47,580 nt of DNA from positions 1 through 47,580 of the forward strand of contig JAUXWO010000116.1 in the NCBI GenBank assembly GCA_030680175.1. Reading direction: 5' to 3'. A program made the position numbers and the translations under genes. The stretch comes from Vicinamibacterales bacterium (GTDB lineage: Bacteria > Acidobacteriota > Vicinamibacteria > Vicinamibacterales > UBA2999). Each line of letters begins with the position of its first letter. Position 1 is the stretch's first letter. The notes beneath the pieces were generated by a model. It was not told where the DNA came from, made no database searches, and saw only the letters and a list, made by a program, of their open reading frames with translations. Shown here piece by piece: positions 7,676-31,022 of the stretch.

Positions 7676-7776
7676 GGAGTGGATCGACTGCAGAGGCACT
7701 GCCAGCGCCTCTGCTCAGCCGCGATTCTGCGGGCGGCCCAACGGGCGGCCCGGCAGGCGATCGTCACCAACACTCC
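7676..7776. repeat. Family B 101-bp palindromic element, copy B1
   Basis: The element begins 2 nt after the M1 stop with GGAGTGG and ends in CACTCC. Near its centre CCGCGATTCTGCGG is followed by the hairpin GGGCGGCCC-AAC-GGGCGGCCC type. Copies B2 and B3 have exactly the same length and B4 is 100 bp. Confidence 0.85.
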
Positions 7777-7834
7777 ACTGGTCCCCCTCGGCGACACCGC
7801 GTGCAATCGCCGGCGCCGGTCCGCAGCGCCGCAG

Positions 7835-7840
7835 TAGACT
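7835..7840 (+). promoter_or_regulatory. -10 box TAGACT, 6 nt before GTG (leaderless type)
   Basis: TAGACT is followed by ACCCGG and the GTG at 7847; there is no room for a ribosome-binding site in the resulting transcript. Confidence 0.5.
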
Positions 7841-7846
7841 ACCCGG

Positions 7847-8263
7847 GTGGGTCCGCGCCTGCCGCACCTGGGGTCGTTCGTCGAGTGGATGGCGGCCGCG
7901 TTCGTCGCCACCGCGGTGCTGTGGGTGGGTTTCACCTGGGCCGGCCCCTGGCTCACGCGCGTGCCGAGCAGCGTCTCGGTGGAGGCGAACCAGGTGCCCG
8001 CCGGCGTCCCCGGCAATGCCCAGTCCGTGCCGCTGCTCGTGCTCATCGACGGGACCGCCATCCGCGTGGGCGACACCCAGGTCGACATCCATGCGCGCCT
8101 CGGCGAGGCCCCCGACGACCCGGAGCCGCAAGCCAGCCGCGGCGCCCTCGGCGATCGCCTGATTCGCAGCTACCTGCGCCAGGGCACCCGCTTCTTTCTC
8201 GTCTGCGAGCGCACCGAACCGGGCGGCCCCATCCGGGTGTCGCGCATCTACCTGCCGCGCTAG
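7847..8263 (+). CDS. Small single-pass membrane protein of unknown function
   Basis: A 138-residue protein with one hydrophobic segment (about 12-34) near the N-terminus and a C-terminal globular part of about 100 residues that would face the periplasm. Near the middle the sequence LLVLIDGTAIRVGDTQ looks like a beta-rich segment; no family is recognised. High third-position GC and a plausible -10 box at the usual 6-nt distance argue that it is a real gene. It lies between element B1 and nuoG, with 93 bp to the nuoG start. Another ORF covers the same bases in a different frame but has no membrane pattern or start signal. Confidence 0.55.
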   Translation: MGPRLPHLGSFVEWMAAAFVATAVLWVGFTWAGPWLTRVPSSVSVEANQVPAGVPGNAQSVPLLVLIDGTAIRVGDTQVDIHARLGEAPDDPEPQASRGALGDRLIRSYLRQGTRFFLVCERTEPGGPIRVSRIYLPR

Positions 8264-8340
8264 AAACCGGGGACGGCCGCCAACCGTCATGGCTGCAGCG
8301 AGTTGCGGCGGGCCGCCCGACAGCTGGACAGCGCCGGTGA

Positions 8341-8346
8341 TATGAT
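8341..8346 (+). promoter_or_regulatory. -10 box TATGAT before nuoG
   Basis: A good -10 hexamer ten bases upstream of the nuoG ATG, giving a leader of only a few bases. Confidence 0.4.
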
Positions 8347-8356
8347 GCCAGGCGCT

Positions 8357-10153
8357 ATGGAACAGGTGACGCTCACCATTGATGGGCGGCCGGTAACCGT
8401 GCCCAAGGGCACGACCGTGCTTCAAGCGGCGATCCAGTCCGGGTCGCCGGTCCCGTACTACTGCTACCACCCCGGGCTGGGCATCGACGCGTCGTGCCGT
8501 GTCTGCCTCGTCAAGATCGAGAAGATGCCGAAGCTGCAGACGTCGTGCTCGACGCCGGTGGCGGAGGGCATGGTCGTGCACACGCAGGATCCGGAAGCCG
8601 TGCAGGGCCGTGCGGGCGTCTTCGAGTTCCTCCTGGTGAACCACCCGCTCGACTGCCCCGTCTGCGACAAGGGCGGCGAGTGCCCGCTGCAGGACTTCTC
8701 GTACACGTTCGGCAACGACGAGAGCCGCATGGACTTCCCGCGGCGCACCTTCGACGGCCAGGGCGTGAAGGCCGACGTGGACTTCGGCCCCACGCTGATG
8801 CTCAACCGGAACCGCTGCATCCTGTGCACGCGCTGCGTCCGGTTCATGCGCGAGATCGACAGCGACGCGCAGATCGGCATCGTCGATCGCGGCAACGGGA
8901 GCGAGATCGCCACGTTCAACGAACAGGGCGTCCACTCGCTGCTCTCGGGCAACCTCATGGATGTCTGCCCGGTCGGCGCCATCACCACCAAGCAGTACCG
9001 CTTCCGCTCGCGGCCCTGGGACAACCCGGCCGCCGTCGACACGATCTGCACGGGCTGCTCGAAGGGCTGCAGCGTGACGGGGTGGCTGCGCGCCAAGCCC
9101 GAGTGGGCCAAGGGCACGAGCCTCGTCCGCATCACGCCGCGCTACAACCCGGCCGTCAACGACTTCTGGATGTGCGACATCGGCCGCTTCCAGTACGGCT
9201 GGGTCGAAGGGGAGCACCGCCTGCGCAAGCCCCTCATCCTGACGAAGGACGGCGTGCAGCAGGTGGTGACGTGGAAGGACGCGCTCGTCAAGGCGCGCGA
9301 CCTGCTGAACGCCGCCGGCCGCCGCGATCCCGCGTCGGTGCGGATGCTCGTCTCGGCGCACGCGTCGCACGAGGAGCTGTTCCTGATCAAGCGGCTCGCG
9401 ACGGAGCTCAAGGGCGAGGCGGGCCTCGCCGACGCACACGTGTCGTGGCGCCGCTCCGAGAAGCAGCAGCCGGCCGCGGCCGCCTTCGTCGTGCCGGCCA
9501 CCGATGCGCCCAACGTGAACGGCGCGCGCGCGCTCGGCTTCACCACCGCCGCCGGCAACGACGGCGAGGCGGACCTGAGCGGCCTGCGCGCGGCCGTGGA
9601 CGCGGGCCGCGTGGCGTTGCTCTACGTGCTCGACCCCGGCCCCGAGGGATCCATCGGCGACGTCTCGTGGATCCTCGAGGCCCGTGCCGCCGGCCGCATC
9701 GGCGCCGTGATCTATCAGGGCGTGCTGGCCACACCGCTCGCGCGGGCGGCGGACCTCGTGCTGCCCGGCGCGGCGTGGGTCGAGAAGGACGGCTGCTTCA
9801 CCAACGACCAGGGCATGCTGCAGACGGCCTCGAAGGCCCTCAACACGCCCGGCGAGGCCGTCGAAGACTGGCAGATCCTCACGAGCGTGGCGGCGGCCGT
9901 CGGGCTCGCGTTCACCTACACGAGCGCGGCCGAAGTGCGCGCGGCCCTCGGCCTCGACAGCCAGACGTTCAACCGGCCCGTGAGCGCCGAGACGTGGCTG
10001 CAGTCGAGCAACCCGATGGAACGGCAGAAGTGGCACGACATGTTCGAGGACCTGCCGCCCGTCAAGGGACACAACGTCCAGATGGAGCGCTCCCCGCAGG
10101 CCACCGTGATCCCGCTCACGCTGGTCACGGAAGAGGTGGGCCGCACCGAATGA
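8357..10153 (+). CDS. nuoG: NADH-quinone oxidoreductase subunit G-like iron-sulfur protein
   Basis: A 598-residue protein. Residues 1-75 form a 2Fe-2S ferredoxin domain (C36, C47, C50, C64). The His-Cys cluster motif H-x3-C-x2-C-x5-C follows at H96/C100/C103/C109, then a 4Fe-4S set at C154/C157/C160/C204 and a further cluster at the start of the molybdopterin-oxidoreductase domain (C231, C234, C238 and a later Cys near 275). The C-terminal region is a shortened, cofactor-free MopB fold, as in complex I. The protein carries electrons along the peripheral arm of complex I. No other nuo gene lies beside it in the window, so this is a detached nuoG, or the large subunit of a related NAD-dependent complex. 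ATG 8357 is chosen because upstream codons are unrelated to the ferredoxin fold. Confidence 0.9.
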   Translation: MEQVTLTIDGRPVTVPKGTTVLQAAIQSGSPVPYYCYHPGLGIDASCRVCLVKIEKMPKLQTSCSTPVAEGMVVHTQDPEAVQGRAGVFEFLLVNHPLDCPVCDKGGECPLQDFSYTFGNDESRMDFPRRTFDGQGVKADVDFGPTLMLNRNRCILCTRCVRFMREIDSDAQIGIVDRGNGSEIATFNEQGVHSLLSGNLMDVCPVGAITTKQYRFRSRPWDNPAAVDTICTGCSKGCSVTGWLRAKPEWAKGTSLVRITPRYNPAVNDFWMCDIGRFQYGWVEGEHRLRKPLILTKDGVQQVVTWKDALVKARDLLNAAGRRDPASVRMLVSAHASHEELFLIKRLATELKGEAGLADAHVSWRRSEKQQPAAAAFVVPATDAPNVNGARALGFTTAAGNDGEADLSGLRAAVDAGRVALLYVLDPGPEGSIGDVSWILEARAAGRIGAVIYQGVLATPLARAADLVLPGAAWVEKDGCFTNDQGMLQTASKALNTPGEAVEDWQILTSVAAAVGLAFTYTSAAEVRAALGLDSQTFNRPVSAETWLQSSNPMERQKWHDMFEDLPPVKGHNVQMERSPQATVIPLTLVTEEVGRTE

Positions 10154-10156
10154 TCC

Positions 10157-10178
10157 GGGGCGCGTAACAGCGCGCCCC
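10157..10178 (+). terminator. Hairpin just after nuoG
   Basis: GGGGCGCG pairs with CGCGCCCC across a 6-nt loop, starting 4 nt after the nuoG stop. It lacks a U-tract. The hairpin after the sigma-54 activator gene (33065-33086) has the same stem and loop lengths. Confidence 0.45.
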
Positions 10179-10255
10179 CGGCCGGCGTAGCACCAGCAGG
10201 GGCTGCGTCCGGGGCCGGGCCCCGGCGGACCGCGCCGTTCGGCCCGCCTCCGGGT

Positions 10256-10311
10256 GGAGTGTCGTCGGCGGCCACTACCGGGCTGGTGGTACCCTCCAGT
10301 CGAGACACACC
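10256..10311. repeat. Internally deleted family B element, copy B5 (56 bp)
   Basis: It keeps both ends (GGAGTGTCGTC... and ...CAGTCGAGACACACC) and the ACTACCGGGC segment but lacks the central GC hairpin. It is oriented like B3 on the plus strand and lies 11 nt before ccdA. Confidence 0.7.
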
Positions 10312-10322
10312 GTTAGAGGGAC

Positions 10323-11075
10323 ATGGAAAACGTCACGCTCTTCACCGCGTTCATCGCCGGCGTCCTGTCGTTCATCTCGCCGTGCGTCCTGCCCCTGATT
10401 CCAGGCTACCTGTCGTACATCTCGGGCGTGTCGCTCGAGGAGATGCGCGGCCCGGCCGCGGGCGGCGGCGCGGCGGGCGTGGCGGCGTCGGTGCAGGTCG
10501 TGAACCCGCGCGTGATGATGACCTCGGTGGCGTTCGTGCTGGGCTTCTCGCTCGTGTTCGTCTCCCTCGGCGCCTCGGCCACCTACTTCGGCCAGTTCCT
10601 GATGGAGCGGCTCACGCTGCTCGGCAAGGTCGCCGGCGTCATCCTGATCATCTTCGGCCTCCACATGATGGGGGTCTTCCGGATCGGCTGGCTCTACCAG
10701 GAAGCACGCATCCAGACGAAGTCGCGGCCCACGGGCTTCATCGGCGCGATGCTCGTCGGCATCGCGTTCGCCTTCGGCTGGACCCCGTGCATCGGCCCGA
10801 TCCTCGCCGGCATTCTCACCGTCGCCGCGGTACAGGACACCGTCGGAGAAGGCATCCGCCTGCTGGCCGTCTACTCGGCCGGCCTGGGCATCCCGTTCCT
10901 GCTGGCGGCGCTGGCCATCGACCACTTCTTCACGGCCTTCCACAAGATCCGCAGGCACTACCGCAAGATCGAGATCGTCTCCGGGCTCCTGCTCATCATC
11001 GTGGGTGTGTTGATCTTCACGAACCGCTTCACGGTCATCGCGCAGTGGCTGACGCCCTATCTGCCCGTGTTCTAG
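10323..11075 (+). CDS. ccdA: Cytochrome c biogenesis CcdA-type thiol transporter
   Basis: A 250-residue polytopic membrane protein with six hydrophobic segments. Both family cysteines are present: C21 in FISPCVLPLIPGY and C155 in FGWTPCIGPI. CcdA/DsbD-type proteins pass electrons from cytoplasmic thioredoxin across the membrane to periplasmic partners for cytochrome c maturation or disulfide reduction. No thioredoxin-like partner is adjacent. A purine-rich site (GAGGGA) precedes the ATG at proper distance, so this gene, unlike several neighbours, appears to use Shine-Dalgarno initiation. Its TAG stop lies 3 nt before element B2. Confidence 0.92.
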   Translation: MENVTLFTAFIAGVLSFISPCVLPLIPGYLSYISGVSLEEMRGPAAGGGAAGVAASVQVVNPRVMMTSVAFVLGFSLVFVSLGASATYFGQFLMERLTLLGKVAGVILIIFGLHMMGVFRIGWLYQEARIQTKSRPTGFIGAMLVGIAFAFGWTPCIGPILAGILTVAAVQDTVGEGIRLLAVYSAGLGIPFLLAALAIDHFFTAFHKIRRHYRKIEIVSGLLLIIVGVLIFTNRFTVIAQWLTPYLPVF

Positions 11076-11077
11076 TC

Positions 11078-11178
11078 GGAGGGCCTCGGCTGAAGAAGGG
11101 CTGCCAGCGCCTCGGCTGCGCCGCGATTCTGCGGGCCGCCCAACGGGCGGCCCGGTCGTAGAGCGTCAACGACACTCC
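11078..11178. repeat. Family B 101-bp palindromic element, copy B2
   Basis: It starts GGAGGGCCTCGGCTG 3 nt after the ccdA stop and ends GACACTCC; the CCGCGATTCTGCGG block and the central GC hairpin are as in B1. Confidence 0.85.
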
Positions 11179-11229
11179 ATCAGTCGGAGGGCCTGACGGC
11201 CGCACGCCGTGGTATTCTGGCGCGCAGTC

Positions 11230-12444
11230 ATGACCCGACTGCCCCTCCGCTTCCTCGTGATCGTGCTCGCACTCGCGGCGACCGGCGGGCTGGGCTACCG
11301 GGCCTTCCGGATCGACCTCTCCATTGGCGCCACGCTCGACGCCACACGGCGCGCCGAGCAGGCCGTCGCCGCCACCCGCCTCACGCTCGCCGGCCTCGAT
11401 GCCACCCTGCGGTCGTTCGTCGCGCCTGGCCAGCGGCCGCGCGTGTGGGCCGAGGAGGCCGATCGCCAGCTCAACCTGGTGCGTGAGCAGCTGATCGCGC
11501 TCGAGAGCGCGGCCCCCGCCGGCGGCGATCACCCGATCGACGGCGCGCTCGACCGCGTGGATCAACTGGCCGCGAGCGCCGGACGCATCCGCAGCTACGT
11601 GGAGGGCGACCAGGGCCTGCTCGCCAGCGACATCGTCTTCAACGAGGCGCGGGGCCTCGTCGCCGGTCTCGACGAACAGGTGGCCCGCGCCGGCTCGCTC
11701 GAGCGCGGACGCCAGGCGGCAGCGCTTTCCAGCCTGCGCCAGGAACAGGGCCTGGTCGTCGGCGGCAGCATCGCGGTCTGGCTGTTTGCGGCCATCCTCC
11801 TGCTGCCCGCCGGCCGCGCGACCCAGCCGGCCAGCCCCGAGGCCACCGCCGCGCACGCCACCTTCGGCGACCTCGGCACCGGCGCGGCACGCGCCCCTGA
11901 GGCCCCCGCGGCATCGAACGCCGCCCGGGGCGCCGCAGCGCCGGCCGCGGCCGCACCTGCGGCGCTGGTGTCGGCCGCGGCGCTCTGCACCGATCTCGCG
12001 CGCGTCACCGACGGCACCGAAGTGACACGGCTCCTCGAGCGTGCGGCCGAGGTGCTCGACGCGTCCGGCGTGATCGTCTGGGTCGCGGGCCCGACCGGCG
12101 CGGAGCTCTTCGCCGCCGGCTCCCACGGCTACGACGAGCGCATGTTCGCCCGCATCGGCGCCATCCACCGCGATGCCGCCAACCTGACGGCGGCCGCCTT
12201 CCGCGAAGGGGCACTCCGCACGAGCGCGGCGCTCGATTCCTCGGGCGCCGCCATCGCCGTGCCCCTCATCGGTCCCTCGGGCGTCGTCGGCGTGCTCTCG
12301 GCCGAGCTGCGCGCGTCGGTGGACCTCTCCCCCTCGGCGTCCGCCCTCGCCACGATCGTCGCCGCCCAGCTCGCCACGCTGGTCGGGTCGCTGCCCTCGG
12401 CCGCCGGCGACGAGGCCCCGCCCGCGCAGCAAGCCAACGCGTAG
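11230..12444 (+). CDS. Membrane-anchored GAF-domain sensor protein
   Basis: A 404-residue protein. It has a hydrophobic segment at about 7-25, a helical extracytoplasmic region (about 30-165), a second membrane segment (about 178-197), an Ala/Pro-rich linker (about 200-255) and a C-terminal GAF-like domain (about 265-395: VTRLLERAAEVLDASGVIVW, IAVPLIGPSGVVGVL). There is no kinase, GGDEF or phosphatase domain after the GAF, so it senses or scaffolds without an obvious output. The ATG at 11230 gives a clean signal-anchor; a TATTCT box lies 11 nt upstream. It is followed 6 nt later by palindrome A2. Ligand and partner are unknown. Confidence 0.75.
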   Translation: MTRLPLRFLVIVLALAATGGLGYRAFRIDLSIGATLDATRRAEQAVAATRLTLAGLDATLRSFVAPGQRPRVWAEEADRQLNLVREQLIALESAAPAGGDHPIDGALDRVDQLAASAGRIRSYVEGDQGLLASDIVFNEARGLVAGLDEQVARAGSLERGRQAAALSSLRQEQGLVVGGSIAVWLFAAILLLPAGRATQPASPEATAAHATFGDLGTGAARAPEAPAASNAARGAAAPAAAAPAALVSAAALCTDLARVTDGTEVTRLLERAAEVLDASGVIVWVAGPTGAELFAAGSHGYDERMFARIGAIHRDAANLTAAAFREGALRTSAALDSSGAAIAVPLIGPSGVVGVLSAELRASVDLSPSASALATIVAAQLATLVGSLPSAAGDEAPPAQQANA

Positions 12445-12450
12445 CGCTGA

Positions 12451-12586
12451 CACGGACAAACACGAAGGCCCCGAAGACGCACGAAGCTCGGCAGGTCAGT
12501 TCTCAGATCCAGATCGGAACCGGATCCATGAATTGAGCTTTCTTCGTGCGTCCTTCGTTTCTTCGTGACCTTCGTGTTTGCTCGTA
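12451..12586. repeat. Family A palindromic element, copy A2
   Basis: ACAAACACGAAGGCC on the left pairs with the TTCGTGTTTG arm on the right. Its core (GATCGGAACCGGATCC) is the reverse complement of the A3 core, so the interior is flipped relative to A1 and A3. It lies between two convergent genes. Confidence 0.85.
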
Positions 12587-12590
12587 GCCG

Positions 12591-13244
12591 CTAGTCCTGA
12601 TTCTTCTCCAGTAACTGCCGGAGCATGCGTTCGATGTCGTCGAGGCGCTGACGCACCTCCGGGTCGCGCTCGCGCAGGCGCGGTTCGAGCAGGCGCATCT
12701 CTTCGCGCAGCCGCGGTTCGAGCTCGCGCAGGCGCGGCTCGAGCTCCTGAAGCCGCGGCGCCAGATCTTCGAGACGGAACGCCGTGGCGCCGGGGGCGCC
12801 GTCGAACGCCTGGGTGGCACGCGGCGCCTCGGGCGTGACCTGCAGCGACTGCCTCTGTCCCCCGCGAACGACGTCGATGCCCACCGTGCGTCCCTCGGGC
12901 GTCTCCTGCACGAGGCGCGAGAACTGCCGCGTGCTCCGCACACGCTCCTCATCGAAGCGGACAACGACATCCCCGGCCTGGAGGCCGGCACGCTCGGCCG
13001 CGGTGTCGGGCCGCACCTCGTCGATGCGGACGCCTCCGGTGACGGCGCCGGCCAGGTCCGCCGGCTCGAGGTCGCTCACGGTGACGCCTAGCTGGCTCCC
13101 GCGTGACTCGAAGGTGAACACCCGCGGCGTGCGGGGGCGTTCCTGCGGCTCCTGCGCCGCCAGGGTGGAGACGGCCGCCACGACGGCCGCCAGAAGCACG
13201 GCGGCCAGCACGAGGGACGTGTGCGTGAATCGGTTGGTGCTCAT
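12591..13244 (-). CDS. Exported PDZ-domain protein with a leucine-heptad C-terminus
   Basis: A 217-residue protein. A signal or anchor segment (about 8-28) is followed by a PDZ domain (about 50-135: GVTVSDLEP, VDEVRPDTAAERAGLQAGDVVVRFD-like core) that would bind C-terminal peptides. The last 60 residues are charged heptads of the type ELEPRLR repeated about five times, predicted to form a coiled coil or extended helix. No protease domain is present, unlike DegP/HtrA. The ATG at 13244 is preceded by AAGAGA; longer in-frame starts would hide the signal sequence. It converges on the GAF gene with A2 between them. Likely an envelope adaptor; substrate unknown. Confidence 0.78.
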   Translation of the reverse strand: MSTNRFTHTSLVLAAVLLAAVVAAVSTLAAQEPQERPRTPRVFTFESRGSQLGVTVSDLEPADLAGAVTGGVRIDEVRPDTAAERAGLQAGDVVVRFDEERVRSTRQFSRLVQETPEGRTVGIDVVRGGQRQSLQVTPEAPRATQAFDGAPGATAFRLEDLAPRLQELEPRLRELEPRLREEMRLLEPRLRERDPEVRQRLDDIERMLRQLLEKNQD

Positions 13245-13393
13245 AGTGGTTCTCTTTGGCGATCCGCCATCGCCTCTGGGCGGGGCCCGATGAAATGCGC
13301 CGGACTGGCACACTCCCCATGGCCCTCCGCCACTGTGGGTGTTCGTTCTGCCATGAAATCTGACGCCCGTCCCGGCTGGCTGGTCGTCCGGCG

Positions 13394-13399
13394 TAGAAT
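13394..13399 (+). promoter_or_regulatory. -10 box TAGAAT, 6 nt before ATG of glnA (leaderless type)
   Basis: TAGAAT-N6-ATG. No Shine-Dalgarno is visible upstream of the glnA start. Confidence 0.55.
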
Positions 13400-13405
13400 C
13401 GCTGG

Positions 13406-14773: not shown

Positions 14774-14784
14774 GGACGTCGCCT

Positions 14785-14928
14785 GAGACGTACAAACACG
14801 AAGGTCACGAAGGCCACGAAGACGCACGAAAAGCTTCAGGTTCAGGGATCCGGTTCCGATCGGGATCTCCAAGGTCTTTCGAGTTTGTTTTCTTCGTGAC
14901 CTTCGTGTCCTTCGTGTTTGTACGTCTC
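14785..14928. repeat. Family A palindromic element, copy A3 (best preserved arms)
   Basis: GAGACGTACAAACACGAAGG at the left end is matched by the reverse complement at the right end; the arms hold CACGAAGG units. The core contains GGATCCGGTTCCGATC. The element could fold into a long hairpin 3' of glnA. Confidence 0.9.
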
Positions 14929-15281
14929 ACCGTTGTCCCCTACACAGGACGTGGCGGCAGCGGCGCTTGGTCCGAAGCGGTCGATTGCGCCAGAAAAGCG
15001 ACGCAACTCGCCCGGCACGCTCTTTGATATCGATGATTGCGGTCGCGGCGGATCACCGGGGTGCGTAATCAGGCAGGCGCTGGCATCGCCGCATCCCGGC
15101 TCGCAGCACGTCTCACGATCCGTTGCGGCCACTTCGACGCGCCCCCGCACCCACTCCCCCCTCCCATCGCGCCTTCCGTCCCATCCACGCCCCACCCGCA
15201 CCCTCGGCCTGTGCCGGTGACGTGACTGCCGGAATGAAGTAGTGTATGGACCGACTCGCGACTCGGTTCAGGGGGGATTTT
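14929..15281. other. Gene-poor upstream region of the PQQ dehydrogenase, with a C-rich tract
   Basis: No convincing gene was found here. Bases 15142-15165 on the minus strand carry four G-runs (5, 3, 6 and 3 long) with loops of 3, 3 and 1 nt, a canonical G-quadruplex pattern. An ATG at 15246 is in frame with the dehydrogenase but has a weaker ribosome-binding site than the GTG at 15282. Confidence 0.5.
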
Positions 15282-17354: not shown

Positions 17355-17395
17355 GGGTCGCGCGCCACGGGCGCACGATCGTCGGTTTTCTCAGG

Positions 17396-17434
17396 AAAAC
17401 GGCCGGGCTGGCCTCCCCCAGTCCGGCCGTTTTC
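17396..17434 (+). terminator. Rho-independent terminator after the PQQ dehydrogenase
   Basis: AAAACGGCCGG pairs with CCGGCCGTTTT (with CTGG/CCAG continuing towards the loop) and ends in a short T-run, about 40 nt after the stop codon. Confidence 0.85.
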
Positions 17435-17472
17435 GCGTACCGGGCGCCCCCTATCGGGGTCCTTGTGAAATT

Positions 17473-17481: not shown

Positions 17482-17490
17482 CCGTAGGTT

Positions 17491-18228: not shown

Positions 18229-18369
18229 CACGTACAAACACGAAGCACACGAAGGCCACGAAGAAGACACAGAACGTTTCCTGCAAAGGGCATTCTCCAG
18301 AGGAGATCGTCCCTTGAAGAATCGTGTGTTGCCTTCGTGGCCTTCGTGTCCTTCGTGTTTTGTACGTCT
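18229..18369. repeat. Family A palindromic element, copy A4
   Basis: The arms ACGTACAAACACGAAG and CTTCGTGTTTTGTACGT are typical, but the core (TCTCCAGAGGAGATCG) differs from that of the other three copies. It lies between convergent genes. Confidence 0.85.
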
Positions 18370-18377
18370 ACGTGGTG

Positions 18378-21190: not shown

Positions 21191-21197
21191 GACGTCT

Positions 21198-21203: not shown

Positions 21204-21264
21204 CAGGACTGGCCGCGCCCATGGGATCCCCACGACGCGCGGCCAGTCCCGTGGGACCCCGCCG

Positions 21265-23310: not shown

Positions 23311-23350
23311 CTCGGAACCCCCACTCGAAGTTCAACGGTCCACGTCTGGT

Positions 23351-23451
23351 GGAGTGTCGTTGACGATCGACTACCGGGCCGCCCGTTGGGCGGTCCGCAG
23401 AATCGCGGCTGAGCAGAGACGCGGGTATTCCCTCTTCAGTCGAGACACTCC
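23351..23451. repeat. Family B 101-bp palindromic element, copy B3
   Basis: The plus strand begins GGAGTGTCGTTGACG and ends CGAGACACTCC; the centre holds the CGGGCCGCCC / GGGCGGTCCG stem. On the minus strand it begins one base after the stop of the fabZ-like gene and has the same orientation relative to that gene as B1 and B2 have to theirs. Confidence 0.9.
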
Positions 23452-23452
23452 G

Positions 23453-23920
23453 CTAGGGCTCCACGTCGCCGCGCTTCGGCCCGAGGGCGAAGGTCATCGT
23501 GCCGTGCAGGATGATCTCGCCGTTCACCCGTGCGCGGCCGGAGAGCTGGCCCATGCGGCTGCGCAACCGCTTCACCGTCGCCTCGATCTCGACGACGTCA
23601 CCCGGATAGACGGGACGCCGGTAACGGACGCGCTCGATGCCCATGAAGTAGATCAGGCGATCTTCGTTCTCGGGCTTCGCCAGGATCATGATGGCCCCGA
23701 CCTGGGCCACGGCCTCGGTCAGAATCGTCGGCGGCAGCGTGGGGCGGCCATCGGGATTCGTGTGCGACAGGTACCGCTCGTTGAGCGAGACGTTCTTCAC
23801 GCCGACGATCCGCTTGTCCGGCTCGAACTCCGTGATCCGGTCCACGAGCAGGAACGGATAGCGGTGCGGCAGGATCCGCTCGATGGCGGCGTAGTCCATG
23901 GGCAGCGTCGGGGTGTCCAT
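23453..23920 (-). CDS. fabZ: FabZ-like hotdog dehydratase (divergent)
   Basis: A 155-residue hotdog-fold protein. LPHRYPFLLVDR near residues 17-28 carries the catalytic histidine of 3-hydroxyacyl-ACP dehydratases, and TEAVAQVGA carries the catalytic glutamate. The segment between them normally reads GHFPGxPxxPGV; here it is SHTNPDGRPTLPPTI, so the substrate tunnel may differ. The default role is dehydration of 3-hydroxyacyl-ACP in fatty-acid synthesis, but no fab, lpx or acp gene is adjacent, and a related thioesterase or dehydratase role is possible. Start: ATG 23920 (ATG 23899 also possible). A TATACT box lies 11 bases upstream inside an inverted repeat. Confidence 0.82.
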   Translation of the reverse strand: MDTPTLPMDYAAIERILPHRYPFLLVDRITEFEPDKRIVGVKNVSLNERYLSHTNPDGRPTLPPTILTEAVAQVGAIMILAKPENEDRLIYFMGIERVRYRRPVYPGDVVEIEATVKRLRSRMGQLSGRARVNGEIILHGTMTFALGPKRGDVEP

Positions 23921-23922
23921 AA

Positions 23923-23949
23923 GCGGCCCCCAGTATACCCGGGGGCCGC
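23923..23949 (-). promoter_or_regulatory. -10 box TATACT enclosed in a 9-bp inverted repeat, upstream of the fabZ-like gene
   Basis: GCGGCCCCC (23923-23931) and GGGGGCCGC (23941-23949) flank AGTATACCC, which contains TATACT on the minus strand. It could be an operator over the promoter, or a hairpin ending the yhaM transcript. Confidence 0.45.
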
Positions 23950-24008
23950 CAGGGGCCGGATCCGTGGCGCCGGGCTCGCCCGCCGCGCGGGCCGGACGAG
24001 ACCCGGCC

Positions 24009-24965: not shown

Positions 24966-24971
24966 CAGGTG

Positions 24972-24977
24972 ATCATA
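24972..24977 (-). promoter_or_regulatory. -10 box TATGAT, 6 nt before ATG of yhaM (leaderless type)
   Basis: On the minus strand TATGAT-CACCTG-ATG, the same 6-nt spacing as kbl, glnA, the M1 gene and the 7847 gene. Confidence 0.55.
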
Positions 24978-24993
24978 CCTGCCGCGGGCCCCC

Positions 24994-25923
24994 CTACGCC
25001 GCTTTCTGCTCCTCGGGTGCGGCCGGGGGGAGTGCGGGCTGCGAGCGCACGATGCCCACGCCGGCAAAGACGAGCACGGCGGCGAACACGATTCGCAGTG
25101 TGAACGGCTCCGCCAGCAGCAGCGTCCCGAGCAGCACGGCGATGATCGGATTGATGTAGGCGTAGAGCGAGACGGTCGAGACGGGCAGGTACTTCAGCGC
25201 GTAGACATACGACGTGTAGCCGAGGATCGAGCCGAAGATGACGAGGTAGGCCATCGCCGCGCCCGAGCGCCACGAGAACGACAGCGCGCCCCAGTCGCCA
25301 CGCGCGCTGCCCACCGCCGTGAGGAGCAGGCCCGCAAACACCATCTGCACGGCCGCGGCCGCGAGCGGGCTGGCGTCGATCGTCCGCCGCTTCGTGTACG
25401 ACGTGCCGAGCGCCCACGAGAGGCAGGCCGCCTGCAGCGCCAGGATCCCGATGACGAAGGCGCGCCCCTCGGCGCCGCCGGCGCCAAGCTGGGGCCACAC
25501 GAGCAGCACGATGCCGGAGAAGCCGACGAGCAGTCCCGTGACGGCGCGCCAGCGGAGGCGTTCCCCGCCGCCCGCGGCGAGTTCGACGAGGACGACCCAG
25601 AACGGCACCATCGCGACGAGCACGGCCGTCAGCCCGCTCGGCACCGACTGCTGCGCGAAGACAACAAGTCCGTTGCCGCCCACGTTCATCAGGATGCCGA
25701 GCACGAGCAGGCTGCCCCAGGTGCGCGGCTTCGGGAGGCGGTGGCCGAGCAGAGGCAAGATCGCCGTGAGGAGGACGCCCGCCCCCAGCCAGCGGAGTCC
25801 GGCGAGCAGCGACACCGGCACCGTCTCGAGCGCGATGCGGATCGCGAAGTACGTCGTGCCCCAAACGAGACACACCGTGATCCACGCCGCATAGCCCAGC
25901 TTCTTCCCCGTTGGCATCACCAT
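24994..25923 (-). CDS. EamA/DMT-family transporter
   Basis: A 309-residue membrane protein with about ten hydrophobic helices arranged as two EamA repeats (about 8-140 and 155-295). The first repeat has WGTTYFAIRIALETVP and the second ends VFAAVLVFAGVGIV. Family members usually export amino acids or other metabolites. An Lrp/AsnC-type regulator lies just upstream on the same strand, a common pairing for amino-acid exporters, so that substrate class is the best guess. Start ATG 25923 (or ATG 25917). The frame stays open upstream only because the tandem repeat D1 lacks stops; peptides such as NEQRTANSE there are repeat translation. Confidence 0.88.
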   Translation of the reverse strand: MVMPTGKKLGYAAWITVCLVWGTTYFAIRIALETVPVSLLAGLRWLGAGVLLTAILPLLGHRLPKPRTWGSLLVLGILMNVGGNGLVVFAQQSVPSGLTAVLVAMVPFWVVLVELAAGGGERLRWRAVTGLLVGFSGIVLLVWPQLGAGGAEGRAFVIGILALQAACLSWALGTSYTKRRTIDASPLAAAAVQMVFAGLLLTAVGSARGDWGALSFSWRSGAAMAYLVIFGSILGYTSYVYALKYLPVSTVSLYAYINPIIAVLLGTLLLAEPFTLRIVFAAVLVFAGVGIVRSQPALPPAAPEEQKAA

Positions 25924-25925
25924 GA

Positions 25926-26073
25926 CTGCTCGCTGTTCGCCGTTCGCTGTTCGCCGTTCGCTATTCGCGGTTCGCTGTTCGTGGTTCGCGGTTCGCGGCT
26001 CGCGGCTCGCCGTTTCCACTACCCACTACCCACTACCCACTACCAACTACCCACTACCCACTACCCACCGTTC
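25926..26073. repeat. Tandem repeats GTTCGCT/GTTCGCC and CACTACC (D1)
   Basis: About a dozen degenerate 7-8 bp GTTCGCN units (to about 26015) are followed by about seven CCACTAC/CCAACTAC units. The array fills the whole gap between lrp and eamA, and the stop codon of the lrp-like gene is the CTA of a CTACCCA unit. Confidence 0.92.
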
Positions 26074-26546
26074 ACCGTCCCCCGTCCGCCCAGCGGCAGC
26101 TTCGAGCTCTCCTTGACGGTCTCGAGCACGATGGTCGTGCGCGTGGACGTGACGGTGGGGATCGACGCGATGCGGGTGCGGAGCAGCTGGCCGAGATGCT
26201 CGGCGTCGCGCGCGCGGACCTTCAGCAGATAGCAGTCGTCGCCCGCCACGTGATGCAGCTCCAGCACCTCGGGGATCTCCGACAGCGCCACCGCCGAGGG
26301 CATTTCGGACCCGTGCTCGCTCGAGCGGACCGACACGTACGCCAGCAGCCCGAGGTCCACCGCCCTCGGATCCACCCTCGCCGTGAATTCCTGGACGATG
26401 CCCTTGGCCTCGAGCTTCCGCAGCCGTTCGAGCACCGCCGAGGGCGCCAGCCCGACCGCCTTGGCGATATCCGACTGCGTCACCCTGGCATTGGACTGAA
26501 GCATGTCCAATATTTGAACATCTGTATCGTCGATTATTCGGCTCAT
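26061..26546 (-). CDS. Lrp/AsnC-family transcriptional regulator
   Basis: A 161-residue protein. The N-terminal winged helix-turn-helix (VTQSDIAKAVGLAPSAVLERLRKL, about 24-48) is followed by the ligand-binding RAM domain (about 70-145, with LELHHVAGDDCYLLKV). It probably senses an amino acid and controls the transporter just downstream, and perhaps itself. The end of the protein (RGTVNGG) is encoded next to the CACTACC array and its TAG comes from that array, so the C-terminus may have been trimmed or extended by the repeat. Start ATG 26546 follows a good promoter. Confidence 0.93.
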   Translation of the reverse strand: MSRIIDDTDVQILDMLQSNARVTQSDIAKAVGLAPSAVLERLRKLEAKGIVQEFTARVDPRAVDLGLLAYVSVRSSEHGSEMPSAVALSEIPEVLELHHVAGDDCYLLKVRARDAEHLGQLLRTRIASIPTVTSTRTTIVLETVKESSKLPLGGRGTVNGG

Positions 26547-26561
26547 TGGTGTCTTTAGAGA

Positions 26562-26590
26562 ACTATATTCAAGACGATGGCGTGTGTCCA
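26562..26590 (-). promoter_or_regulatory. Sigma-70-type promoter of the lrp/asnC gene (TGGACA-N17-TATAGT)
   Basis: On the minus strand TGGACA (26590-26585) is followed by 17 bases and TATAGT (26567-26562), 15 bases before the ATG. This is the best bipartite promoter in the window. Confidence 0.65.
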
Positions 26591-26606
26591 GATGTTCCCT
26601 GGTGGG

Positions 26607-26665
26607 GAGGGGTCTGGCACCGTGACATGGGAAACGGTGCAGTTCCTGCTGCCCCCTGTGGAAAA
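26607..26665. repeat. GGGGTCTGGCACCGTGAC element, half copy (C1)
   Basis: One arm of the palindrome at 31541-31669 is present (GAGGGGTCTGGCACCGTGAC, then GAAACGGTGCAGTTCCTGC); the matching arm is absent or degraded. It lies between the GGDEF gene's 3' end and the lrp promoter. Confidence 0.8.
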
Positions 26666-26781
26666 GTTGCGGTCGTCTACGGGAGGCAGCAGCCTGCTCG
26701 CGACGAACCGTGATAGTGGGAGCGTTCGGGGCGGATGGACGGGCGGGGCTGGAACTGGCGGGAAGCGAACCGCGAATGGCG

Positions 26782-28047
26782 CTACGCCACCGACAGGTTG
26801 TCGGACCCAATGCGCACGCAGTTGCGCCCCTCGTTCTTCGCGCGGTAGAGCGCCGCGTCGGCGCGCGCGATGATCGCCTCGAGGTTCACCTCGCCGGGCA
26901 GGGCCTGGGTGATCCCGAAGCTCGCCGTGACGGTGAGCGCTTCGCCCGCCCACGGAATCGGCCGCTCCGCGATCTCCCGCCGGAGCGTCTCCGACACGCG
27001 CCGGGCGCCGGCGAGCGGCGTCTCGGGCAGCAGCACCAGGAACTCCTCGCCCCCGTAGCGGCACTTCACGTCGGAGCCGCGCAGCACTTCGCGCATCCGC
27101 CGCCCGACCGCCGCCAGGACGGCATCGCCGCACAGGTGGCCGTAGCGATCGTTCACGTCCTTGAAGTGATCGAGGTCGAACATGATGAGCGAGACCGGCA
27201 TCTGGCTGCGCCGCGCGCGGCGCAGTTCGGCGTCCACCACCTCGATCGCGTGCGCGCGCGTCACGCAGCCGGTGAGTCCGTCGCGCAGGCTGTTCTCGCG
27301 CACCTCGCGGAACAGCTGCGCATTCTTCACCGACACGGCCAGGAGCGACGCCGCGGCCTCGATCACCCGCCGGTGCGCCGCCGGCAGCGCCTCGTCTTTC
27401 GGCGTCACGCCGAGCACGCCCACCGGGGCCCCGCCGACGATCAGCGGGAACCCGAGCGCGCGGCCCGGGGATGCGGGCGCGGCCGACGGCGAGGCCAGGA
27501 CGTGCGCGGCCAGATCCTCACGCGCGAGGGTGTCGTCCGCCGTGCGCGTGTCACCGCTCAGCGCTTCCCACTCATTGCCCTGCCGGAGCAGCACCCACAG
27601 CTCGTCCGTCCCCACGACCCGCGGCAGGTGATGCGTGACCGCACTGCGGATCGCGTCGTAGTCGAGCGACCGGGCCAGCGCATGACCGAAGGCCACGAGC
27701 CGTTCGAGCTCCCCCGCGCGCGCCTCCGCCTCGGCCTTCGCCGCCTCGGCCGCCGCGGCCTGCGCCTGCACCTCGTGACGCTTGCGCAGTTGATGGACGA
27801 TGTAGACACCGGTGAGGAGCATGAGCGCGGGCATCAGCGCAAGGCCGGAGCTCCGCTCGATGTCACGCGCGATATCAAGCCCGCGGGAGATGGGCTCGGA
27901 GAAGATGATGACGAGGGCCGCCGTCAGGCCTGCAAGCAGCAGCATGTCCTGACGGCCCACCAGACGCATATCGTGCGCAGCGTAGCTCCGCCCGGCGCCA
28001 TCGTCAATGACCGGATTCGTGATCGGCGATTCAGGGGGCGCGGACAC
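26782..28047 (-). CDS. Membrane GAF-GGDEF diguanylate cyclase
   Basis: Up to 421 residues. Two hydrophobic segments (about 35-55 and 70-86) are followed by an Ala/Glu-rich coiled coil, a GAF-like region (about 115-245) and a GGDEF domain (about 255-415) with the active-site sequence GGEEF at 332-336. An I-site RxxD (RGSD) lies five residues before it, so the enzyme should make cyclic di-GMP and be product-inhibited. Start: GTG 28047 gives the longest form; ATG 27969 (TACGCT nine bases upstream) is equally likely and keeps all domains. It is divergent from the hybrid histidine kinase, so both may be controlled together. Confidence 0.88.
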   Translation of the reverse strand: MSAPPESPITNPVIDDGAGRSYAAHDMRLVGRQDMLLLAGLTAALVIIFSEPISRGLDIARDIERSSGLALMPALMLLTGVYIVHQLRKRHEVQAQAAAAEAAKAEAEARAGELERLVAFGHALARSLDYDAIRSAVTHHLPRVVGTDELWVLLRQGNEWEALSGDTRTADDTLAREDLAAHVLASPSAAPASPGRALGFPLIVGGAPVGVLGVTPKDEALPAAHRRVIEAAASLLAVSVKNAQLFREVRENSLRDGLTGCVTRAHAIEVVDAELRRARRSQMPVSLIMFDLDHFKDVNDRYGHLCGDAVLAAVGRRMREVLRGSDVKCRYGGEEFLVLLPETPLAGARRVSETLRREIAERPIPWAGEALTVTASFGITQALPGEVNLEAIIARADAALYRAKNEGRNCVRIGSDNLSVA

Positions 28048-28091
28048 CCACCCGCCCGGCGACCCCGGTTGCCCCCAGCGCCCGGGGGCGC

Positions 28092-28097
28092 TAAAGT
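28092..28097 (+). promoter_or_regulatory. -10 box TAAAGT, 6 nt before an ATG (leaderless type)
   Basis: TAAAGT-GGGCCC-ATG at 28104. The ATG opens a short frame that ends on the likely start of the kinase gene. Confidence 0.45.
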
Positions 28098-28103
28098 GGG
28101 CCC

Positions 28104-28223
28104 ATGCGGTCCAGAGTCCACAGGCACGCCATCCGTGCGGCCGCCGAGCCCACGTGGACGTCCAGGTGCCAGGCCTGGACGCCTACGCCCACGCCGCCGC
28201 CCGGCAAGCAGCCGTCGATGTGA
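28104..28223 (+). CDS. Possible 39-codon leader ORF overlapping the kinase start
   Basis: ATG 28104 follows a -10 box at the leaderless distance and reads 39 codons (MRSRVHRHAIRAAAEP... rich in Arg, Pro and Thr) to a TGA at 28221-28223. The stop overlaps the GTG at 28220 of the histidine kinase in the arrangement GTGA, typical of translational coupling. No family is recognised. It could be a regulatory leader, or the remains of an N-terminus separated by a frameshift. Coding potential cannot be judged at this length. Confidence 0.3.
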   Translation: MRSRVHRHAIRAAAEPTWTSRCQAWTPTPTPPPGKQPSM

Positions 28224-29731
28224 ACCGCGCCGATGCGTTCGCCCGTCTCTTCGAGGCCGTTCACGAGGGGGTCTACATCGGCGTCCTCGCGACGGCGGGC
28301 TCTGTCACAGAGGCCGCCAACCCCCACCTGAAGCTCACCTTCGGCTACCCCCCAGAGACTCCGGACCACGAGGTCACGCCGTTTGAGGCGGCGCACTTCG
28401 TCGACCCGCAGGCGCGCGAGGTCTTCCTGGAACGGCTGGGGTCGGCGGGTACCGTGGCGTCGTATCTGCTGCGGCTGCGCAAGGTGGACGGAGCCGCGAT
28501 CTGGCTCGAGGTCACCGCGAACGCGGAGGTGCTCGAGCCGGGGCGGCTGCGCGTCGAGGCGATCGTGCGCGACGTAAGCGAGCGCAAGAAGCTCGACGAC
28601 CAGGCGCGCGACCTCTATCAGCAGCTGCTGCAGGCCGAGAAGATGGCGGCGCTCGGCCAGACGATCTCCGGCGTCGCGCACGAGTTGAACAACCCGCTTG
28701 CCACCATCCTGTCGTGGTCCGAGCGGCTCGCGCAGAAGAGCGCCGACCCGCCGGTGCGTAAGGGCCTCGAGATCATCCTCGGGGAGGCGGAGCGCGCCGC
28801 GCGCATCGTGCGCAATCTCCTCACCTTCGCGCGCAAGCGGCAGAGCACGCGCGCGATGGTCGATCTCAACCAGGTCGTGCGCGAGACGCTCGCGCTGCGC
28901 GCCTACGAGCAGCGCGTGACCAACATCACCGTCATCCCGGCGCTCGCCGCCGGCCTGCCCCAGATCTTCGCCGACGGGCATCAGTTCAAGCAGGTGCTGC
29001 TCAACCTGCTGATCAACGCCGAGCAGGCGATGATCGGCGCCCACGGACGCGGCACCCTCGTCGTCCGCACCTGGCACGATGCGGATCGCGACGCGATTGT
29101 GCTCGAAGTGAACGATGACGGTCCGGGGATTCCGGAGGAGATGCAGGGCCGGATCTTCGATCCGTTCTTCACGACGAAGGAAGTCGGCAAGGGCACGGGC
29201 CTCGGCCTCACCGTGGCGTACGCGATCGTGCAGGAGCACGGCGGGCGCATCTGGCTCGCGTCTGCGCAGGGCGGCGGCGCCTCGTTCTTCATCGAGATGC
29301 CCGTGACGGGCGCGAGCGGCGCGCCGCGCAAGGCGCCGCCGGCGCCGGTGGCGCTCGAGGCGTTCAAGGGCGCGCGGGTGCTGGTGGTGGAGGACGAGCC
29401 CGCGCTGGCCGCGGCGGTGGCCGAGGCGCTCGAGGACGCGGGGTTCGTGGTGGACCGGGCGGGCGACGGCGAGGAAGGACTCGGCCGGGTGACGGCCGAG
29501 CCCTATGACCTCGTGGTGTGTGACCTGAAGATGCCGCGCATGGACGGCATGGAGTTCTACCGCGCCATGGCGGCCGCGACGCCGGCGCTGGCGCGCCGCG
29601 TGATCTTCGTGACGGGCGACGTCGCCGGCACCGACGCCGAGCGCTTCCTCGACGAAGCCGGCTGCCTCTGGCTGTCCAAGCCGTTCCGGCTTGGTGACTT
29701 GCTGCGCGCCGCGCGCGACACGCTGTCGTAG
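28220..29731 (+). CDS. PAS hybrid histidine kinase with C-terminal receiver
   Basis: About 503 residues from GTG 28220 (GTG 28154, in frame, would add 22). A PAS domain (about 5-125, GYPPETPDHEV, IVRDVSERKKL) is followed by HisKA with phospho-acceptor H154 (SGVAHELNNPLATI), an HATPase domain (NDDGPGIPEEM, FFTTKEVGKGTGLGL) and a receiver (about 385-500) with acceptor D435 (VVCDLKMPRMDG). No membrane segment is seen, so it is a cytoplasmic sensor. The C-terminal receiver implies a phosphorelay needing a separate phosphotransfer protein; a DHp-only protein is encoded 1.3 kb downstream. The last 175 bp overlap, tail to tail, the 3' end of the sigma factor gene on the other strand. Confidence 0.9.
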   Translation: MNRADAFARLFEAVHEGVYIGVLATAGSVTEAANPHLKLTFGYPPETPDHEVTPFEAAHFVDPQAREVFLERLGSAGTVASYLLRLRKVDGAAIWLEVTANAEVLEPGRLRVEAIVRDVSERKKLDDQARDLYQQLLQAEKMAALGQTISGVAHELNNPLATILSWSERLAQKSADPPVRKGLEIILGEAERAARIVRNLLTFARKRQSTRAMVDLNQVVRETLALRAYEQRVTNITVIPALAAGLPQIFADGHQFKQVLLNLLINAEQAMIGAHGRGTLVVRTWHDADRDAIVLEVNDDGPGIPEEMQGRIFDPFFTTKEVGKGTGLGLTVAYAIVQEHGGRIWLASAQGGGASFFIEMPVTGASGAPRKAPPAPVALEAFKGARVLVVEDEPALAAAVAEALEDAGFVVDRAGDGEEGLGRVTAEPYDLVVCDLKMPRMDGMEFYRAMAAATPALARRVIFVTGDVAGTDAERFLDEAGCLWLSKPFRLGDLLRAARDTLS

Positions 29732-30588
29732 CGCACGACGATGCCGCCGGTGGCGCGACGGGCGGCGCCGGAGGCGACGCGCGTGCTGTCGTCCGGCAGC
29801 GTGGCCTTCACCATCTTCATCTTCGGCTTCGCCTCGAAGGCGAGGAGGGCGCCGCGGAGCGCCGTCACGGTGTCGGCCGGCGTCACGGTGGCGCCGAGCG
29901 CATCACGCAGCCGCTTGATGGCGCGCGCGTGGAGCTGCGAGACGCGCGACTCGTTGACGCCGAGCTCCGCGCCGATCTCCTTCATCGTCACTTCGGCGTA
30001 GTAGTAGAGGCTGATGACGCGCTGCTCTCGGGCGGGCAGCGACTCGATCGCCCCGCGCACGCGCGCCTGCACTTCATGCTTCTCGTAGGCGTAGTCGGGG
30101 CGCTCGGGTTCGGCCGGCACCATCACCGCCGGGAGCTGCGACTCGTCGACGTTGTCGCCGCACGAGAGCGGCGACGTCGACTCGATCGTGTTGATGCGCA
30201 CGACGATCTTGCCGAGTCGCGCCTCGTCGAGACCGACGGCGGCGGCGAGGTCGGCGTTCGACGGCTCGTGCCCGAGGCTGGCGCGCAGCTTCTCGCGCGC
30301 GGCCTCGAGCTCGCGGCGCAGGCGTCGCACACCGCGTGGCCAGGCGTCCTTGCGGAGCGCATCGATCATGGCGCCACGGATGCGGCGTTCGGCAAAGGTC
30401 TCGAACTTGATACCGCGCGATTCCTCGAAACGGCGCGCCGCGTCGATCAAGCCGATCACGCCGTCCTGGACGAGGTCGCCCAGGTCGATGGAATGCGGCA
30501 TGGTGGCGGCCATGCGCCGGGCCAGCGCTTCCACGAAGGGAAGTCCGGCTTCGATGCGCGGGTTGGTGGTCTCGATCTCGGCCTTCAT
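29557..30588 (-). CDS. Sigma-28/FliA-like RNA polymerase sigma factor with a long C-terminal tail
   Basis: A 343-residue protein. Region 2 lies at about 20-85 (DLGDLVQDGVIGLIDAARRF, FETFAERRIRGAMIDALR), region 3 at about 95-130 and region 4 with its helix-turn-helix at about 180-228 (MKEIGAELGVNESRVSQLH). This is the FliA/SigD/WhiG layout, which usually ends near residue 230-260. Here about 110 further residues follow, Arg/Ser/Ala-rich, and the last 57 are encoded antisense to the receiver domain of the hybrid kinase. The tail has no known domain and may be accidental read-through of a lost stop. ATG 30588 has a GGAG site. No flagellar gene is in the window, so the regulon may not be motility. 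Confidence 0.88.
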   Translation of the reverse strand: MKAEIETTNPRIEAGLPFVEALARRMAATMPHSIDLGDLVQDGVIGLIDAARRFEESRGIKFETFAERRIRGAMIDALRKDAWPRGVRRLRRELEAAREKLRASLGHEPSNADLAAAVGLDEARLGKIVVRINTIESTSPLSCGDNVDESQLPAVMVPAEPERPDYAYEKHEVQARVRGAIESLPAREQRVISLYYYAEVTMKEIGAELGVNESRVSQLHARAIKRLRDALGATVTPADTVTALRGALLAFEAKPKMKMVKATLPDDSTRVASGAARRATGGIVVRYDSVSRAARSKSPSRNGLDSQRQPASSRKRSASVPATSPVTKITRRASAGVAAAMAR

Positions 30589-30922
30589 CAGGGGGTCTCC
30601 GAAGGCCTCAGGTTCGAATTCGTGAGGCCCTTACGGAACCTGTCTAGTGCAGCGACGATGCCAGCTTTGTGCAACGGCGTGGCGGGGTGTGCAAAAAAGG
30701 ACGAGATGTGGTGACAAAACCATTATTTGCAGTCACTTACACGCATGTTCTCACCCGAGCACACTGCTGCGCGCGCCCGGTCAATCGCCCTCATGTCGTC
30801 AAATTGTTGGCGAAACAGGCCAATTGATCGTCAAACACATGACGCGTTCATTACGTTTTTGTGGTTAGGGGGAAGGGGTGGAAGCGGGCCTTGGTCTCTG
30901 CCGAGGCCGGGGGCTGGGTCGT
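30589..30922. other. AT-richer upstream region of the sigma factor gene
   Basis: No gene seen. It contains the sigma-54-like site at 30648-30663 and a stretch with clearly lower GC (about 30690-30870) than the surroundings, including TTTGCAGTCACTT, CAAATTGTT and CATTACGTTTTTG. This may be a regulatory upstream region or old foreign DNA. Confidence 0.45.
30648..30663 (-). promoter_or_regulatory. Sigma-54-like -24/-12 element before the sigma-28-like gene
   Basis: On the minus strand TGGCATCGTCGCTGCA has GG and GC separated by ten bases and matches the TGGCAY-N5-TTGCW consensus except for one T-to-C change in the -12 part and one in the spacer purine. It lies 60 bp before the ATG of the sigma gene. 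A sigma-54 activator gene is 1.1 kb away. Confidence 0.35.
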
Positions 30923-31022
30923 GGCGTGTCTCGACTCGGGCTACTGCCGGCGTCTCTGGCCGGACGCAACTTGCGGGCGGGCCCAACCGGGGGCCCGGCA
31001 GCGGACCGTCAACGACACTCGG
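30923..31022. repeat. Family B palindromic element, copy B4 (100 bp, diverged)
   Basis: The ends GGCGTGTCTCGACT and GTCAACGACACTCG and the central GC hairpin are kept; the interior has several substitutions. Its right end touches the stop codon (read on the minus strand) of the DHp-only gene with no gap. Relative to that gene it is reversed compared with B1-B3. Confidence 0.8.

Follow-up and report, generated by a model that had tools for sequence, protein, structure and literature searches.

Stop-codon placement of a CTAG-bounded, putatively IS630-mobilized miniature element in a GC-rich Vicinamibacterales genome

Why should the same short palindrome lie at the stop codons of four different genes? 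The question is raised by a stretch of 47,580 nucleotides (the window) that comprises positions 1 to 47,580 of contig JAUXWO010000116.1, from a Vicinamibacterales bacterium of the Acidobacteriota (assembly GCA_030680175.1). An earlier note on this DNA had described four copies of a 101-bp element. It proposed that the element either is targeted to stop codons or supplies the TAG with its own end, and that it may serve as a portable terminator or 3'-end protector. We find that the element is very probably a non-autonomous miniature inverted-repeat transposable element (MITE), of IS630-family (Tc1/mariner-type) origin, and that a transposase of this family putatively moves it in trans. The element most likely targets CTAG and, in effect, stop codons. 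Its stop-codon placement is real, and mostly the outcome of where CTAG remains in a GC-rich genome; a modest excess at stops is not fully explained.

A 103-bp unit between CTAG words

The source assembly (G000) has 4.98 Mb in 143 contigs and a base composition of 70% GC. Our sample of it was 1.239 Mb, 25% of the genome, from nine contigs, whole or in part, with the window included. A profile search of the sample with nhmmer gave 45 copies at E<=1e-3, and the four window copies belong to this family. By extrapolation, the whole genome carries roughly 180 copies. BLAST against G000 returned at least 49 matches, three of them short and weak, with 40 of 133 candidates scored. Similarly, the terminal 12-mer of the element, allowing up to one mismatch, occurs 88 and 89 times per strand in G000, compared with 2 and 5 times for a reversed control. 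The flanks of 30 copies show that the true unit is the 101 bp preceded by T and followed by A. It is thus 103 bp long, flanked by two CTAG words, with the layout CTAG | TGGAGTGTATCGACTGAAGAGG...GGGCCGCCC-AAC-GGGCGGCCC...GTCAACGACACYCCA | CTAG. Counted by eye, 18 of the 30 copies keep an intact CTAG at both ends, and 29 keep at least one. Some copies stand in tandem with a 107-bp period (103+4), one CTAG being common to neighbours. The terminal inverted repeats read TGGAGTGT...ACACTCCA. Short length, many copies, inverted ends and the lack of a transposase gene within the unit are the properties of a MITE. By eye, one reading frame is open through several versions of the element. A hidden coding frame was rejected because changes in the interior have no codon phase (65, 54 and 66 by phase, in 31 copies). 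A scan of the 1.24-Mb sample for a full-length transposon with the ends of this type, B1, found no convincing pair.

How are these copies placed with respect to genes? Genes were predicted with a self-written hexamer script, rather than a published tool, in three training rounds and with retraining after Pfam evidence. Stop contact was allowed from -3 to +4 nt. The sample holds 47 copies (the 45, plus two of sister type) at 42 insertion sites. As the earlier note had suggested for the window, distance to the nearest stop is short: 33 of the 42 sites abut a predicted stop, nine touch none and none is inside a predicted gene. One of the 33 stop sites (C71:74559, with a 3-nt overlap) is doubtful. 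The explanation lies largely in CTAG itself. Base composition predicts 3437 occurrences of this word in the sample; with the elements counted there are 266, a 13-fold depletion. Outside the elements there are 216, of which 108 are stop codons, 71 are intergenic and 37 are in coding sequence. For the contrast word GTAG, only 107 of 2601 are stops. The likely reason is that a GC-rich genome has many codons ending in C, and an in-frame C followed by TAG is a stop by definition. Therefore, stop codons are the main harmless target for an element that requires CTAG. Targeting of stop codons thus holds in effect but is indirect, the target being TA within CTAG. A caution in the earlier note, that C-ending codons plus TAG often create CTAG here, turns out to be the core of the answer.

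We propose the following mechanism. An IS630-family transposase would insert the element at TA, with a strong preference for CTAG, and would duplicate TA (or CTAG). Since CTAG is rare in this genome, and half of what remains consists of stops (a C-ending codon plus TAG), most surviving insertions would fall in stop codons. The protein would usually be unchanged because the duplication restores the stop on the gene side. Selection may then preserve the word at the stop, leaving the one on the far side to decay.

Beside this family there are related repeats. Sister types B2 and B3 have exactly the same length and another central hairpin, which is fully paired in B2 (C71:3276-3386 and C71:20988-21098 in G000, and 1603-1713 of locus L027). 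One B1 and one B2 copy form a tandem joined by a common CTAG. Other inverted-repeat elements bounded by CTAG lie at C11:197852-197957 and C11:207722-207887, with ends CTAGYGTCCTGGAA and CTAGTCCCCTGG; these are perhaps MITEs of other IS630-type partners. More of the sample copies than expected, 36 of 45, are on the contig plus strand, perhaps by chance. Strand-biased insertion into single-stranded DNA was considered and rejected, since third-position skew gives no consistent replication strand and copies on further contigs are mixed.

Duplicated target words and an empty site

Logically, if one copy of a duplicated target has to serve as a stop codon, the word next to the gene should be kept and the far word should decay. 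This is what we see at the 32 one-sided stop sites (one two-sided site was dropped). CTAG is present in 26 near words and 10 far words. Near-only sites number 18 and far-only sites two, with CTAG on both sides at eight and on neither at four (McNemar p=0.0004). Furthermore, 23 of the 32 far words are at most one base from CTAG.

The window copies illustrate the arrangement. Copy 1 occupies 7675-7777 on the plus strand (103 bp with its terminal bases, formerly 7676-7776; nhmmer 86.2 bits, E=1.2e-24). Its near-side CTAG, at 7671-7674 on the plus strand, contains the stop of a peptidase M1 gene (4924-7674), and the far-side CTGG (7778-7781) is read as a decayed target copy. Copy 2, also on the plus strand, is at 11077-11179 (73.6 bits, E=9.5e-21). 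Here, the near-side CTAG (11072-11075, plus strand) ends a CcdA/DsbD_TM gene (10323-11075), and the far-side TCAG (11180-11183) is again read as decayed. Copy 3 is on the minus strand at 23350-23452 (105.3 bits, E=1.4e-30). The TAG of its near-side word (CTAG, 23453-23456, minus strand) is the stop of a FabA/FabZ-like gene (23453-23920), and we read the far-side CTGG at 23346-23349 (CCAG in element orientation) as a third decayed copy. Copy 4 (30922-31022, plus strand; 33.9 bits, E=2.1e-8) is the most diverged and is reversed relative to its gene. It adjoins a minus-strand CTAG at 31023-31026, whose TAG stops an 81-amino-acid open reading frame (31023-31268); the far-side word is GTCG (30918-30921). 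All four copies are where they had been reported, and the lengths by the ends then used are 101 bp for copies 1 to 3 and 100 bp for copy 4. CTAG is indeed present at each gene junction, starting at 7671, 11072, 23453 and 31023, and TAG is the stop in every case. Pfam backs the first three genes; the 81-amino-acid frame has no Pfam match. The reported orientation, three copies the same as the gene and one reversed, is correct for the window and does not extend to the sample, where 34 stop contacts divide into 11 same and 23 opposite (p=0.06).

Is the TAG older than the insertion? At one locus this can be read directly. In relative G026 an element lies between two adjacent genes, and its congener G010, together with G022 and G012, has the same genes without the element. 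The gene pair in these three is 83-84% identical to that of G026 and has a single TAC TAG. Thus, CTCTAC-TA[element]TA-GGGATG in G026 compares with CTCTAC-TAG-CGTGATG in G022, CTGTAC-TAG-CGCGATG in G010 and GTGTAC-TAG-GGTGATG in G012. Among 14 of 15 orthologous junctions that were read, TAG follows the same Tyr codon (TAC or TAT) in eight, TGA in five and TAA in one, and by eye none of the 14 holds an element of the family. Since the empty counterparts share both the TAG and the protein end, the TAG predates insertion at G026 and the protein end is unchanged. Hence, the idea that the element supplies the TAG is not upheld at the single locus with a readable close empty site. The first base of the element may, nonetheless, be the third base of the stop. 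Note that this one locus gives target duplication with an empty site, the duplicated unit being TA or CTAG.

The protein does not always escape. At a junction of two genes that we take to be gcvH and gcvP, one of the 27 loci read, from 30, has an element (G014); another of the 27 (G004) has other upstream sequence. In G014, the upstream gcvH-like gene has the CTA in another frame and runs on to a TGA within the element, by which it gains several residues. Insertion therefore leaves the protein usually, rather than always, untouched.

Relatives of the element and the transposase that moved it

A BLAST search with the consensus gave only short matches, in 3 of 58 relatives, and two of these lay inside divergent elements of the same layout. 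The relatives were searched with a covariance model, R1, with 64 candidates scored per genome; absences are weak for this reason. RNAalifold, on a mixed alignment (A2), gave five pairs, none changed on both sides, and R1 was therefore built on a structure set from the B1 fold. Of the 35 other genomes in the bacterial family, 11 gave R1 matches to divergent members, between 1 and 14 per genome; the 23 genomes outside the family gave none. The 27 relatives' elements that were read are 109-113 nt long with both words, save two of 151 and 155. In these longer versions, from L125 and L142, the conserved hairpin has a loop about 40 bases longer. When named genomes were scanned for an exact 21-mer, 55 loci were returned, of which 54 are family members by eye. 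Their titles are Acidobacteria (39), Sulfopaludibacter (10) and Acidimicrobiia (5). Some titles may be wrong, because one Sulfopaludibacter locus has the same element sequence as G002 of the bacterial family. Viral contigs scanned for the relatives' hairpin core gave 0 matches. The family is spread in soil and groundwater bacteria, mostly titled Acidobacteria, and its interior is unusually conserved.

For comparison of edges we used 72 rows, representing 71 elements (L176 equals L132, and the left edge of L176 is mis-set); nine of the 54 loci from the 21-mer pattern repeated others already included and were left out. The conserved block starts at yTA and stops at TAr. The ends are mainly TGG...CCA, with GT further in. 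A stop or start lies a few bases from the edge in 53 rows, 18 have none and one is within a predicted gene. In 16 of the 72, a stop at one edge is paired with a start at the other. TA is present at both edges in 42 rows. Among these, a pyrimidine precedes the left TA in 41, and a purine follows the right TA in 38. In 13 of the 42, the right TA is preceded by G, which duplication of CTAG would require mutation to give. This favours TA as the duplicated unit, as shown in vitro for ISY100; TA duplication is described for IS630 also (PMC2170065). The CTAG preference of IS630 is stated in the title of Tenzen and Ohtsubo 1991, as cited in PMC2170065.

The termini point to the same transposase family, as they resemble ends of IS630-family transposons from the same bacterial order. 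Among 20 IS630 loci from relatives, similar inverted ends next to CTAG are present in seven (L267, L270, L271, L273, L274, L275 and L279). In L273 the left end, TAGTGGACTGTATCAGCTGA, matches the G000 element at 17 of 20 positions and the relatives' consensus at 16 of 20. Scored with a matrix of the MITE left end, it ranks top of the 1903 TA 20-mers in the 20 loci, and of the eight highest scores seven equal those of IS630 ends. The L273 open reading frame encodes an IS630 family transposase (NF033545, E=4e-76). Genes for such transposases occur in 8 of 11 element-bearing members of the bacterial family and in 6 of 24 without a detected element (p=0.011). Compared with IS630 and ISY100 of the Tc1/mariner family, our element has similar ends and a similar TA/CTAG target; it differs in being a 103-bp unit without a transposase gene.

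Several observations weigh against this interpretation. G000, an assembly of 143 contigs, has no match to PF13358 (DDE_3), PF01609 or PF13546, and so yields no partner in the same genome. The best-matching IS630, that of L273 (in G037), lies in another bacterial family, and the in-family IS630s with CTAG-type ends (L270, L271 and L275) are identical at only 8-12 of 20 positions. Half of the IS630 ends, 7 of 14, score 5.7 or less, including the right end of L273 (12 of 20), and of the eight highest null scores one (16.6) belongs to no listed IS630 end. CTAG-type ends are present on both sides in only 7 of the 20 loci. In-register word pairs in G000 (CTAG/CTAG 14, CTAG/CTAA 1, with 30 copies dropped) do not separate TA from CTAG duplication. 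The interior of the element is conserved across genera, unlike that of an ordinary MITE. Finally, stops are in excess beyond CTAG geography, at 33 of 42 sites compared with 108 of 179 CTAGs outside coding sequence (p=0.017). The occupancy of CTAG is 33/141 at stops and 9/80 in intergenic DNA (p=0.03), a modest excess at stops; these figures count all 33 and 9 sites as CTAG, a few of the 33 now reading TTAG, CTGA or other. A transposase partner in the same genome is not strictly required, since partners can be lost. Two other movers were rejected: IS701, whose target is YTAG, because PF13546 is absent from G000, and an IS4/IS5-type enzyme because PF01609 is absent.

The Pfam result could instead favour a Y1 (HUH, RAYT) transposase, with the element a REP/REPIN-type unit and CTAG its cleavage word. 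G000 has three Y1_Tnp genes, compared with no match to DDE_3, DDE_Tnp_1 or DDE_5, and the hairpin is conserved with a compensatory change. Among family members, 10 of the 11 that bear the element have a Y1 gene, as do 14 of the 24 others (p=0.11). Conversely, no MITE copy lies within about 1.5 kb on each side of the three G000 genes, where a REPIN/RAYT pair would have one, and two of the three are flanked by other repeats. Genome G008 has seven element matches and no Y1 match. The ends of the element also resemble those of IS630. We consider movement by a Y1 enzyme very unlikely.

The central hairpin and comparison with known elements

Could the hairpin, rather than the target word, account for retention at stops? 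Clear compensatory change is confined to this hairpin. The pair adjoining the fixed core stays paired in 98%, in the forms CG, GC, TA, GT and AT; pairs inside the core, fixed by the 21-mer pattern, are outside the reach of the covariation test. Single-strand folding is moderately better than that of shuffles (z -1.1 to -2.7). Over 36 copies, changes per site are 3.7 times fewer in the stem than in the remaining interior (0.029 and 0.107). For G/C sites alone the values are 0.029 and 0.074 with all variants (p=4e-5), and 0.025 and 0.043 with rare variants (p=0.056). We conclude that the hairpin is kept in the family; the sign of constraint after insertion is weak. In the window, copy 2 has an intact stem (GGGCCGCCC-AAC-GGGCGGCCC, 11133-11153), copies 1 and 3 each show one mismatch there, and the stem of copy 4 is rearranged.

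A portable 3'-end part, kept at stops because its hairpin terminates transcription or protects mRNA 3' ends, would fit the slow change of the stem and the excess at stops described above. It would also fit the enrichment of elements in convergent gaps (12 of 42 sites, compared with 152 of 1110; p=0.012), and ERIC elements are reported to alter mRNA stability (PMC2229807). Yet this enrichment is expected too if stops are the target, because such gaps hold two stops. The difference in the stem falls to p=0.056 on matched sites with rare variants, and the stem itself is imperfect in three of the window copies. Orientation to genes follows no clear rule. The suggestion of a portable terminator found no support: positions 7600-11300, which hold copies 1 and 2, contain nothing terminator-like, and by eye the hairpin lacks a following T-run in all four copies. 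The conserved hairpin is compatible with a 3'-end role. We judge retention for such a role unlikely, and the element probably has no function for its host. In a related proposal, the element belongs to an old MITE lineage that has adapted to stop codons. TAG or TAA would be regenerated from the target TA and the element's own first base, stops would be offered to other frames, and the whole could drop in at stop/start junctions. Hairpin and length would be kept across genera because copies act in 3' ends. This, too, seems improbable; if true, the element would be a mobile, mostly harmless and possibly useful part of 3' untranslated regions. Lastly, the element could be a conserved structured RNA gene, mobile by chance, as its length of about 103-105 bp and its core sequence are kept across genera and one hairpin covaries. 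Against this, Rfam gave no match over the window copies or over the elements of five other loci searched (one weak match lies elsewhere in those loci), clear covariation is limited to one hairpin, and elements sit in either orientation to genes. An RNA gene is, accordingly, highly improbable.

Similar elements are known in other bacteria, as far as the available parts of the sources describe them. RUP of Streptococcus pneumoniae is 107 bp long, targets TA, has 108 intergenic copies and is thought to be moved by IS630-Spn1 (PMC2229807). Our element is alike in size, in TA target and in having short inverted ends that resemble IS630 ends. It differs in sequence and phylum, stop-codon placement is not among the RUP features described there, and in G000 no partner insertion sequence was found. 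The 127-bp ERIC, IRU or RU-1 of enterobacteria is likewise small, with TA duplication and a stem-loop, and can sit at a gene 3' end, lengthening the protein (PMC2229807, PMC2759123). These differ in sequence and host group, and the same sources assign no transposase to them. QMITE2 of Coxiella burnetii is a MITE mainly in 3' untranslated regions and can lengthen a protein end (PMC10969869, PMC5896051), as our element does at the gcvH-like gene of G014. Its sequence is different, and the sources, as seen, describe no CTAG target for it. Our literature search, incomplete, limited to open-licence papers and so weak evidence, found neither this family described from Acidobacteria nor a MITE explained by CTAG at stops. 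As far as that search goes, the MITE family is new and of a known kind. It is a clear and testable case of how a transposon's target word, made scarce by codon rules and by avoidance of CTAG in a GC-rich genome, can largely alone yield a striking stop-codon element. It also cautions against taking stop-codon placement as function.

Other repeats are present. In the window, a second repeat (GGGGTCTGGCACCG...) occurs at 26604-26657, 31538-31591 and 31621-31669. It looks like part of a REP/RAYT system, because a Y1 transposase gene in L114 has its core, GGTCTGGCACC, on either flank. Another Y1 gene lies between inverted GGGGTCAGATCTTGA repeats at about 1287 and 2313 of L113, apparently a second REP/RAYT pair in G000. 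Inverted ACGTACAAACACGAAGG-type arms, 50-70 nt apart, mark a further palindromic repeat family at 2199-2336, 14784-14931 and 18230-18372 of the window. Short GTTCGCT-type tandem repeats are at 25912-26038 and 37063-37224, the second in or near predicted coding sequence.

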